Source: a virus
Virus record (IMG/VR): IMGVR_UViG_3300047481_000688
Span: 1 to 22,652 of that record
Length of the DNA: 22,652 nucleotides
Strand: one strand, 5' to 3'
Shown here piece after piece: positions 12,493-22,579 of the stretch. The position numbers were made by a program, and so were the translations under genes. Every line of letters begins with the position of its first letter. Position 1 is the stretch's first letter. The notes below the pieces were generated by a model. The model was not told where the DNA came from and did no database searches. It saw only the letters and a program-made list of their open reading frames with translations.

Positions 12493-12528
12493 TTGTGTCG
12501 CACAAAATCTGGGCAAAAATCTGGGCAA
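12493..12528. promoter_or_regulatory. Operator-like inverted repeat followed by a tandem 12-bp repeat
   Basis: TTGTGTCGCACAA at 12493-12505 is close to the element at 11113-11125. It runs into two copies of AAAATCTGGGCA (12504-12515 and 12517-12528). The block lies about 50 bp upstream of the GATase -35 box in the gap between the divergent genes. No convincing ORF covers it. Confidence 0.45.
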
Positions 12529-12615
12529 AGTTTCCCCTATGTCGCCCCCTTATAGGGCATATGCATAGGCTAGCCACATATGTCAAGAATAGTTCGCTGT
12601 AGGCGTACAGATACC

Positions 12616-12662
12616 GGGTCGTTTGCTCTCCTGCCCGGTGAGCGGGTCGAGCAAAGCGACCC
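12616..12662 (+). ncRNA. Structured RNA element A, upstream of the amidoligase
   Basis: A long hairpin: 12616-12628 pairs with 12649-12662 through 13 base pairs with one bulged G (12656). Inside are an unpaired TCCT(G) on the 5' side (12629-12633), a short inner stem CCCG/CGGG with loop GTGAG, and TC on the 3' side. No U-tract follows, so it is not a terminator. A competing stem ACCGGG/CCCGGT (12613-12618 with 12633-12638) overlaps it. Its core matches element B at 14697-14732 in 20 of 24 bases while the outer stems differ. It lies 150 bp before the amidoligase, probably in its 5' untranslated leader. Strand is inferred from that. Confidence 0.55.
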
Positions 12663-12711
12663 AATTACAAGAAAGTTGGTAGTAACGACAATAATAAATT
12701 AGCAGTAACAA

Positions 12712-12738
12712 TAATGATTGCATGCTTAGTAATCATTA
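12712..12738. repeat. Inverted repeat TAATGATT / AATCATTA upstream of the amidoligase
   Basis: Eight-base arms at 12712-12719 and 12731-12738 around an 11-bp centre. It may be an operator or an mRNA hairpin in the leader. A 27-codon ORF at 12714-12797 uses part of it but has no ribosome binding site. The remainder of the 12383-12811 gap shows no gene and no confident plus-strand promoter. Confidence 0.35.
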
Positions 12739-12811
12739 CCATACTAGCCCTATCAGGGTTAGAGACCTGTAACAACAATTCATATTGCAAACTATAAGGA
12801 GATAAAGCAAC

Positions 12812-14314
12812 ATGATAAAAGAAATAAAAGAGGGTGCCGGAAGAATAGCAACAGAGTTAAAAGCTATTCAAGAAGGTGCTGGAAGAATAGATGCCATTGA
12901 TTATGTAAACATAATTGAAAAGAATCTACCAGAATATACAAAAATACATTCATCCGAAGGAAGCTGGATGGAAGTAATATCAGTTTATGTTAATCCATGG
13001 AAAAACATATCAGCACAAGATATGCGATCAGTAATAGCTTATGGATTACATAATCTAGGCGGTGAACACATTGTAATACTAGAAAACTTAATAGAAAATA
13101 TTGAGAGATATAGATTACAAACAACTGTTTTCAATGCATTCTTACAATCAGTCCTACAAACTGAAGAGCTAAAAATACATAGAGAAAGAAATACGATCAC
13201 TCATGTTATTAACAGATCCAATGTGATTGAAAGCTCAGAACTAGGATATGTAATAACAAGTTGGGAAAAAGTATCCAACACATCTATTACGAAAGAGGCG
13301 CTAATAGATGCAGTGTCACAAATGGCTGAACTTAAGAGAATACTAATAAGTAGAAAAAATCAATTATTAGGAAAAGACAAAGTCAGCGGCTTAAAAAGCC
13401 TATATGATCAAAAACCAACAACACCAGCATCTAGTTCTTGGTTCAGCAGCATATACGATGAAATGCCCAAAAATGGATTGACAAGTCGTACTTGGGGTTT
13501 CGAGTTAGAAATCGCAGATGCCAAAGATGTAAGACCAGTATTTGGTATCGAAAAAGGCGAAGATGGCAGTTTGCGTTCATATGAAAGTGACAGCGACTGC
13601 GAGTGTGATTGCGATGATTGCTGCTATCACGATTGCGATTGTGACCACTGCGAAAACAGAAACACAGACCCAGAGCACTGCAGAGGTCGTCATTGCGCAA
13701 ATGCAGATATGGCAGAGTTTAGGTCAGTGCGAGGTATCAGCAGATGCAAGCACTATGGTCTAAATAAACTATGTCAAAACCTAGAAAGTGAAGATGCAGA
13801 AGTAAATGATACATGCGGAGTACACATTCACGTATATGCCGCAGATCTAGAACCAAAACAAGTCGGCCACGTACTTGCTTGCTATCACTGGATTAGCAAA
13901 ATGATTGTAACCATAGCAGGTAGGGAAGACACAGAATATGCAAGAGATCTGAGCATAAACGAAATTAAAAACGGTATAAAGCATGGAAAGATATCTGGCA
14001 TAAAGATGAAGTCTGTAAATACAATGCATCTAAATAGCGATAGAGGAACTATAGAGTTTCGTCAAATGGAGGGCACACTGAATTACAAAAAGATTACAGT
14101 GTGGGCTTGGCTTGTACGAGGCTTAGTAACTTGTGCACAACGCGGTATGACGCTAAGTAGTTTGATAAAAGCTAAAAACCTAGAAGATGTGATGTCGGTA
14201 ATGAGCAAATATCAATACTCGCTATCAAGCGAGAACCCAGATGAAATTATCCCGGGCGGTAGACAGGACAATGATTTCATCAAGAAGCACAAATATATGA
14301 TACTGGAAAGGTAA
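12812..14314 (+). CDS. Amidoligase (Amidoligase_2 / COOH-NH2 ligase superfamily) with Cys-rich insert
   Basis: A 500-residue protein. The ligase domain begins at about residue 225: TWGFELEIA (227-235) and EDGSL (250-254), then GVHIHVYAAD (336-345) and TIEFRQMEGTL (413-423). These match the order of the phage amidoligase family related to glutamine synthetase and gamma-glutamylcysteine ligase, which join a carboxylate to an amine using ATP. Between EDGSL and AEFRSV lies an insert at about 260-298 with ten Cys in 33 residues (263, 265, 267, 270, 271, 275, 277, 280, 290, 295) plus several His and many Asp. The N-terminal 220 residues are helical, with a duplicated EGAGRI. AAGGAGA lies nine bases upstream of the ATG. 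Codons are A-rich (many ATA and AGA), unlike the capsid genes. The substrate is unknown. Confidence 0.8.
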   Translation: MIKEIKEGAGRIATELKAIQEGAGRIDAIDYVNIIEKNLPEYTKIHSSEGSWMEVISVYVNPWKNISAQDMRSVIAYGLHNLGGEHIVILENLIENIERYRLQTTVFNAFLQSVLQTEELKIHRERNTITHVINRSNVIESSELGYVITSWEKVSNTSITKEALIDAVSQMAELKRILISRKNQLLGKDKVSGLKSLYDQKPTTPASSSWFSSIYDEMPKNGLTSRTWGFELEIADAKDVRPVFGIEKGEDGSLRSYESDSDCECDCDDCCYHDCDCDHCENRNTDPEHCRGRHCANADMAEFRSVRGISRCKHYGLNKLCQNLESEDAEVNDTCGVHIHVYAADLEPKQVGHVLACYHWISKMIVTIAGREDTEYARDLSINEIKNGIKHGKISGIKMKSVNTMHLNSDRGTIEFRQMEGTLNYKKITVWAWLVRGLVTCAQRGMTLSSLIKAKNLEDVMSVMSKYQYSLSSENPDEIIPGGRQDNDFIKKHKYMILER

Positions 14315-14318
14315 GAAT

Positions 14319-14603
14319 ATGAAAATAAAGTTCATAGATCATATGCCACCCAAAAGGGGACCAAAGTCCAAGTATCCGTGGGCTGAGTTCATAGAAGAGC
14401 TATACAAACACCCCAACAGGTGGGCAGAGTTCCCTATGCTAGTAGCACATTCAATAACTGCATACAATGTATCCCAACGGTTTGCAGATATTGAAGTATC
14501 AATATCAGGCGGTAACAACTTCGCAATAGACAATCCAAACAAAAAAGATTGGACAGTCTATCTGCGATATGTTCCAAAAACTGGGCCTCAATCCAGTGAG
14601 TAA
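14319..14603 (+). CDS. Small actinophage-type protein with KYPW motif
   Basis: A 94-residue protein beginning MKIKFIDHMPPKRGPKSKYP followed by WAEFIEEL. Small phage proteins with a front of the form xPPKRG-x-KYPW-x-E are common in actinobacterial phages, with no known function; a nucleic-acid-binding role has been guessed from the basic N-terminus. It starts four bases after the amidoligase stop behind GGAAAGG and shares the same A-rich codon use, so the two genes form an operon that ends at the terminator after 14617. Confidence 0.6.
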   Translation: MKIKFIDHMPPKRGPKSKYPWAEFIEELYKHPNRWAEFPMLVAHSITAYNVSQRFADIEVSISGGNNFAIDNPNKKDWTVYLRYVPKTGPQSSE

Positions 14604-14604
14604 G

Positions 14605-14640
14605 TTCTCCTTATAGAGAAAAGCTTTAGGGCTTTTCTTT
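14605..14640 (+). terminator. Intrinsic terminator with an anti-Shine-Dalgarno lead sequence
   Basis: AGAAAAGC (14617-14624) pairs with GCTTTTCT (14631-14638) around TTTAGG, followed by TTCC, a fair terminator for the amidoligase operon. Just before it, TCTCCTTATAG (14606-14616) is perfectly complementary to 11 bases over the amidoligase ribosome binding site (12792-12802). TTCTCCTTAT (14605-14614) is also complementary to the site of the 14895 gene (14879-14888). Confidence 0.6.
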
Positions 14641-14696
14641 CCACATACGCACGTAGGGTAGGGAGACGAGATGGAAGCGCAAGACCATATCCGCTC

Positions 14697-14732
14697 CGTC
14701 CGTCTCCTGACCTGCGAGCAGGTCGACGGACG
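14697..14732 (+). ncRNA. Structured RNA element B
   Basis: CGTCCGTC (14697-14704) pairs perfectly with GACGGACG (14725-14732). Inside, TCCT (14705-14708) is unpaired and GACCTG/CAGGTC (14709-14714 with 14719-14724) forms a second helix with tetraloop CGAG. The core matches element A (12627-12650) in 20 of 24 positions without gaps, but the outer stem is a different sequence that still pairs. A 25-codon ORF at 14671-14748 runs through it and is probably chance. It lies just before a small membrane ORF, so it may be a leader element. Strand inferred. Confidence 0.55.
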
Positions 14733-14753: not shown

Positions 14754-14876
14754 ATGGGTAGACATAGCAAGACACAAACACTAAGCCAGAGGCTTAGGTC
14801 AAGTATCGTAGACTTTGCGGTATACGGTGCATTTGCAGTAACGCTAGCAACGACAATCGTTCTAGTATTCGAGTAG
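14754..14876 (+). CDS. 40-residue single-pass membrane protein
   Basis: ATG 14754 to TAG 14876. A basic N-terminus (MGRHSKTQTLSQRLRSS) is followed by a hydrophobic helix FAVYGAFAVTLATTIVLVF ending one residue before the stop, so it would be inserted with its N-terminus inside the cell. GGAAAG lies about eight bases upstream. It precedes the 133-residue gene by 18 bp. Function unknown. Confidence 0.5.
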   Translation: MGRHSKTQTLSQRLRSSIVDFAVYGAFAVTLATTIVLVFE

Positions 14877-14894: not shown

Positions 14895-15296
14895 ATGACA
14901 CAAATTAAATTCGTAGTACCAGAAGTTAAGCAAAACGATTACTCAACACCATTACAGCCCGGTAAGTACACGGGCAAGATAGTTGAGCTACGACCAACCA
15001 CAATCAGGTCAGGTCGACACCAAGGCAAGAAGTCAATAGACGTTGCCGTTCAGATGGAAGATGGTAGATACATCTGGAAGGTATTGCCACAGTTTACGAT
15101 AACCCAGTACAACAAGTTGTCACAGTCAGACAAACAATGGGTTGAGATGAGTACCGTTAGTTTCGCAAATGCGCTGAAGCTAGTCGGAGATTTCACGCTT
15201 GATGCAGTAATCGGCAAAGACATCAAGGTCTTAGTCGGTATGCACCAAGACAACGGCTATGGTCCGCAGAATTCCATAGTTAAGTTCCTGCAGTAA
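14895..15296 (+). CDS. DUF669-like hypothetical protein
   Basis: A 133-residue protein with PLQPGKYTGKIVELRP near the N-terminus, DGRYIWKVLPQF in the middle, NALKLVGDF and IGKDIKVLVG near the end. The order resembles the DUF669 protein at 3944-4414 (PAGTY, then FWKTQAFFEALGF, then IGAKVKIVPG), so it may be a distant paralogue and bind single-stranded DNA. AAGGAG lies ten bases upstream of the ATG. It ends just before a strong terminator. The family link is tentative. Confidence 0.55.
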   Translation: MTQIKFVVPEVKQNDYSTPLQPGKYTGKIVELRPTTIRSGRHQGKKSIDVAVQMEDGRYIWKVLPQFTITQYNKLSQSDKQWVEMSTVSFANALKLVGDFTLDAVIGKDIKVLVGMHQDNGYGPQNSIVKFLQ

Positions 15297-15319
15297 CCCC
15301 CCTTCACACTGCAGGTCGA

Positions 15320-15363
15320 GGGTCAGAATCGGTTACCCCCTAGCCGGTTCTGGCCCTTTTTTT
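15320..15363 (+). terminator. Strong intrinsic terminator
   Basis: GGGTCAGAATCGG (15320-15332) pairs with CCGGTTCTGGCCC (15344-15356) through 13 pairs including two G-T, followed by seven Ts. It separates the accessory genes from the head module. Confidence 0.9.
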
Positions 15364-22525: not shown

Positions 22526-22579
22526 AGATGCATCTGCTACCCGCTCTGTCGAGTTTATTCCAGGGCGGGTTAGCTTTAC

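Follow-up and report, generated by a model that had tools for sequence, protein, structure and literature searches.

Our analyses confirmed that the window, a 22,652-base virus record studied over its whole length, carries two related hairpins, and showed that in most lineages of the phages related to it the hairpin copies within a phage are much closer to each other than to the hairpin at the same place in another lineage. Its gene content (terminase, portal, protease and capsid) marks the window as a tailed phage, with a portal protein at most 39% identical to those of isolated actinophages such as Clavibacter phage CN1A. No close record for the window was found in the phage collection, and a terminase scan of genome contigs for a host or prophage gave no match; the host group of these uncultured phages is probably actinobacterial.

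Both hairpins lie on the + strand. Element A (12616–12662), in the leader of the amidoligase operon, has the layout GGGTCG-TTTGCTC-[TCCTG]-CCCG-loop-CGGG-[TC]-GAGCAAA-G-CGACCC and thus carries an extra flanking stem, GGGTCG/CGACCC. Element B (14697–14732) reads CGTCCGTC-[TCCT]-GACCTG-CGAG-CAGGTC-GACGGACG. Their cores, at 12627–12650 and 14703–14726, have 20 of 24 bases in common. Pattern matches at both places bore out these coordinates and shared bases, which the first-pass annotation had proposed, and the sequence likewise agrees with its statement that the outer stems of A and B differ yet pair perfectly. A looser version of the core pattern, expected 0.01 times by chance, was seen twice in the window, at A and at B. 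The minimum free energies are −27.3 kcal/mol for A (z −4.1) and −21.3 kcal/mol for B (z −3.8), and none of 200 shuffles folded as well in either case. When a pair was required to reach 20/24 identity in the core and to have outer stems of 7 bp or more, the window contained one and 60 dinucleotide shuffles none; the best core identity in the shuffles was 16/24. The A hairpin persists in wider folding windows, whereas in a 101-nt folding window B loses to pairing with upstream sequence. The elements had been described as belonging to no known RNA family, and comparison with Rfam 15 agrees: at the gathering threshold the window gave no match at A, at B or anywhere else. A search of the loci of 10 relatives gave no match at the elements and one borderline abiF match elsewhere (L012:11217–11252, 37.3 bits against a threshold of 37), which adjoins a terminator after the capsid region and may be a chance hairpin.

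The + strand genes around the two elements follow a simple order. Directly after A comes a small membrane-protein frame (12678–12797) that is kept in L010 and L012 in an alignment inspected by eye; its usual GTG start appears, also by eye, to have been lost in the window (the L010 version begins VIDDNNRL), and the window frame may be dead. The Amidoligase_2 gene (12812–14314) and a conserved 94-aa gene of unassigned function, orf94 (14319–14603), follow. Directly downstream of B is a 40-aa membrane-type ORF (14754–14876), and in L012 a similar small protein (MSRHAKPK...) stands after that phage's own hairpin. The next gene, p14895 (14895–15296), encodes an OB-fold, SSB-like protein with a weak DUF669 match; its predicted structure (mean pLDDT 88) is an OB fold that most resembles PrgE, followed by RPA, and no relatives were found among isolated phages. 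An intrinsic terminator (15318–15358) separates p14895 from the terminase genes and was the sole + strand terminator that the scan flagged between 12380 and 16000. The terminator that had been placed before B (about 14623–14645) was thus not recovered, and A and B themselves are absent from the scan's list, the U run sought after the stem being absent. We also abandoned the earlier description of A and B as bracketing the amidoligase operon; each is better understood as leading the gene on its right, and relatives hold two to three such hairpins within the amidoligase-to-terminase segment. Upstream of A, at about 12508–12530, is a tandem TCTGGGCAAAAATCTGGGCAAA repeat, kept in L010 and L012, that is possibly an operator or promoter region.

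Relatives were gathered by terminase (53 loci), amidoligase (2), the 94-aa gene (18) and p14895 (14), sets that overlap, many of the loci lying on shared contigs. Both elements recur at the matching places in one relative, L010: A at L010:3942–3985 and B, with two compensated pairs, at L010:6297–6332. Across the four copies from the window and L010, 26 of 26 outer stem cells are paired and five of the seven outer pairs have changed on both sides. The covariation score of 0.905 lies above those of all 500 shuffles (mean 0.355) and falls to 0.19–0.29 when the partner is slid by one base. These compensatory changes between the window and L010 uphold the earlier proposal that the structure is under selection. 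The covariance model suggested with it was built from the four copies and, in 833 kb of relatives, found only those four (next best E 3.9). The window-type core is thus narrow in distribution. Pattern scans of IMG/VR with longer B-type and L013-type cores found no new structured homologue beyond the contigs already gathered. Exact-core matches in IMG/VR, L001 and L002, were rejected as coding coincidences in GC-rich genes (DPLTGQE by eye).

In the other relatives, hairpins stand at the same places and their sequences are different. L013, L014 and L103 have two 44-nt hairpins each, L033 two of 45 nt, L015, L016 and L017 three each of 65–66 nt, L006 three of 61–64 nt, and L012 three. Because detection required stems of at least 6 bp, the pairing in these hairpins is not independent evidence; the differences between their arms are. 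Both sides have changed in 3 of 16 pairs of the L013/L014/L103 group, and the nine hairpins of L015–L017 show eight distinct 5′ outer arms, every one complemented by its own 3′ arm (the m elements of L015 and L017 have the same 5′ outer arm). A scan of amidoligase leaders gave, by our reading, 10 of 14 loci with a GC-rich hairpin; L023, L025 and L036 had none, and the L010 element, found by alignment, is outside this count.

The place of the hairpins before p14895 is kept across lineages. Sequence upstream of this gene was available in 20 phages, a 21st having none, and in 16 of the 20, some of which are close relatives so that the cases are not all independent, a hairpin ends 17–38 nt ahead of the start (criteria: 6 or more contiguous pairs, an energy no higher than −13 and a 3′ end no more than 45 nt from the start). 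The same criteria applied to eight other conserved genes gave hairpins at 17 of 271 starts: amidoligase 0/25, orf94 0/22, p15861 5/45, terminase 5/45, portal 0/41, protease 2/36, capsid 3/30 and GAT 2/27. The four misses are L019, L037, L050 and the window, where B is followed by the 40-aa ORF and p14895 is not immediately next; in L037 and L050 weaker hairpins could be made out by eye and were left out of the 16. Under a lenient rule, a start with a match resembling a ribosome site lies downstream of 35 of 38 elements; this rule found no start after A. A position close to a promoter is not required, since several elements come straight after a stop codon or share sequence with the end of the gene before them; L005 B and L013 B, for example, by eye directly follow or overlap such an end. 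The element is thus in general no terminator and is not bound to a promoter upstream of it. We also considered whether the hairpin pairs with the ribosome site behind it, in the anti-Shine-Dalgarno manner, and saw no effect (mean z 0.08). CTCC occurs in 17 of the 38 elements, compared with 10.2 expected.

The likeness of copies within a phage was measured in two ways. Similarity within a phage had a median z of 5.25 (26 pairs), compared with 1.1 (125 pairs) between B elements of different lineages, the lineages being those we assigned and the comparison including two L103 entries shifted by 6 bases. When a single phage was taken from each lineage and its B element matched with the other element of the same phage, the similarities summed to 61.9; random pairing averaged 16.4 (SD 7.0), and none of 20,000 permutations reached the observed value. 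The own-phage partner ranked first in 7 of 10 lineages; it ranked second in L018, third in L050 and fifth in L020, where the copies are hardly alike. Two phages, G001 (L010) and G013, have proteins that are mostly 70–99% identical genome-wide, yet their A hairpins differ. Their amidoligases are 30% identical over the overlap, the gene being incomplete in G013. This comparison revealed no trans factor: among ORFs beyond the A–B segment, none was seen to follow hairpin type. Given such similar genomes with different A hairpins and no outside ORF tracking the type, the A–B segment may move as one exchanged block. The candidates for the likeness of the copies are either a reader within the A–B segment, or a block swap, or a plastic reader.

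Two other recurrent hairpins were observed in these genomes. One, after the capsid gene (22539–22570 in the window), is present in about 30 loci, with other sites in L010 (near 13834) and L014 (near 8312). It has a 9–10-bp stem with a TT bulge (..CTG-TT-GAGC..GCTC-CAG..), its stems vary with compensation in 17 distinct copies, and no Rfam match to it was found in the loci searched. The other, after a gene of roughly 358 aa (for example G007:32254–32292, G014:19640–19678 and G012:20293–20333), has a conserved top of the TTTGCGCCCATTT type and a variable GC-rich stem.

We tentatively favor, with somewhat less than even confidence, the explanation that A and B are cis-acting leader hairpins, the RNA operator of a small regulon read by a phage-specific factor, the folded molecule being assumed to be the sense RNA, although mid-helix wobbles hint at the other strand. 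In the relatives, the hairpins stand a few bases upstream of ribosome-binding sites, on the same strand as the genes, and the genes behind them are the small amidoligase-operon gene, variable small genes and the SSB-like p14895. A specific phage-encoded factor would read the core, and reading by one factor would make the copies change together. Its binding would control the translation or stability of the adjacent mRNA, and the hairpins would form a small post-transcriptional regulon like phage translational operators. Because p14895 is predicted to be an OB fold, an autogenous SSB-type operator is a concrete candidate, and autogenous control by p14895, as with T4 gp32, would be the first candidate for the putative reader. 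The p14895 sequence does not track hairpin type, the proteins of L010 and L012/G013 being 86–88% identical.

Two known systems come near to such an operator. The closest are the ESAS repeats of cluster K mycobacteriophages, which, in the available account, are inverted repeats just upstream of a subset of starts, as the hairpins are here, and which resemble them also in lying nearly all in one orientation with a consensus per genome (PMC3203893). As described there, the 17-bp half-sites of ESAS are conserved in sequence, with a spacer of mostly 4–13 bp, and are tied to a 13-bp SAS (PMC3203893); in A and B, by contrast, the outer stem sequence varies with compensation. The SAS word GGGATAGGAGCCC gave 3 matches at 3 mismatches against 3.7 expected, none of them near A or B. 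The gene 32 leaders of T4 and RB69 are, like the hairpins before p14895, structured leaders of an SSB gene, and the available text reports that these operators diverge in sequence between the two related phages and that the gp32 reader is plastic (PMC535899). Gene 32, however, is one autogenous target, whereas here two to three similar hairpins stand before several genes.

Of the competing explanations, the one that survives best, although we consider it unlikely, is that these are stability or processing hairpins, whose stems would shield or label the downstream mRNA at the 5′ end left by host RNases, with no dedicated phage factor involved. The position of the hairpins directly upstream of ribosome sites and between genes, some right after a stop codon, is consistent with this, but a nuclease shared among hosts would not yield a core private to each phage group, and the inner stems are short.

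Processive antitermination, in which an RNA-only element like HK022 put or a protein-dependent one like lambda nut would modify RNA polymerase and let it read through downstream terminators, is less probable still. Lambda nut consists of a boxA adjoining a boxB hairpin, and several copies per segment, right before ribosome sites, would be unusual for it; the enterobacterial boxA-like word CGCTCTTA had no match near A or B. In favor of antitermination, the two copies head two gene groups, and a strong terminator follows p14895 ahead of the terminase genes; putL and putR are likewise described as two similar structured RNAs that head two transcription units downstream of early promoters (PMC9378689). 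In the same account, however, put is about 70 nt long, has two stem-loops and acts on host RNA polymerase (PMC9378689), from which core replacement between phages of similar hosts would not be expected, and the elements here are single hairpins of 36–66 nt that adjoin ribosome sites and have a core private to the lineage.

We judge it similarly improbable that the element belongs to the bottom strand, as single-stranded template DNA (an N4-like promoter or a replication or recombination site) or as antisense RNA. In its favor are the wobble pairs, counted in folds that treated G·U and C·A alike, a C·A on one strand being a G·U on the other. At mid-helix positions with at least 3 pairs on each side, the gene (+) strand has 7 C·A, 6 of them independent, and no G·U; with looser flanks the counts are 10 against 4 (at least 2 pairs) and 15 against 9 (at least 1 pair). 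Folding favors the − strand by more than 0.5 kcal/mol in 23 of the 38 elements and the + strand in 8, while the capsid-gene hairpin, used as a yardstick, shows the opposite bias (18 G·U against 3 C·A on the gene strand). This small sample hints at folding of the opposite strand, which would be antisense RNA or template-strand DNA, but the strict events number only 6 independent ones and the L006/L023 group leans the opposite way in wobble bias. N4 promoter hairpins, which have short stems and a tiny loop, are used by the virion RNA polymerase; the hairpins here are far longer. The T7-type polymerase domain PF00940 was found in 0 of 15 contigs, yet also in 0 of 14 control genomes. Like the present hairpins, which lie right before short leaders, N4 early promoters are described as template-strand hairpins upstream of genes in which the strand matters and non-conserved stem bases are free if the hairpin is kept (PMC4496689). 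We give even less weight to an "address" system, in which a lineage's own hairpin type would head a fixed gene set and, as template-strand ssDNA or antisense RNA, be read by a lineage-specific factor; if it were true, gene expression would answer only to the phage's own machinery.

It is very unlikely that the hairpins are mobile or duplicated repeats without function, alike within a phage through recent copying. The within-phage similarity and the seeming exchange of the A–B segment as a block would fit such repeats, but the outer stems pair in spite of their differences from copy to copy, and the position ahead of p14895 is conserved from lineage to lineage. Finally, it is highly improbable that A and B are products of chance, or that they belong to the ORFs of 40 codons (12580) and 25 codons (14671) in which they lie: although neither ORF is interrupted and that at 14671 comes with a good ribosome site, neither peptide has relatives in the relatives' loci examined, the four core differences do not look synonymous, and chance is excluded because none of the 60 shuffles held a comparable pair.

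Returning to the leader-hairpin operator, a place and shape that are kept while the sequence is swapped between lineages, yet mostly stays in step among the copies of one phage, are what a self-specific signal and its coevolving reader would be expected to show. Within the terms searched, the literature on freshwater actinophages and phage leader hairpins, including the passages of PMC6802176 with hairpin words, does not describe the element. The rule for finding such elements is to match copies inside one phage, not across phages. If a reader exists, it and these hairpins would add a new regulatory pair to those of phages, in uncultured ones with probably actinobacterial hosts, and leader hairpins of this kind, ESAS included, would be a wider class that sequence-based RNA family searches have missed.
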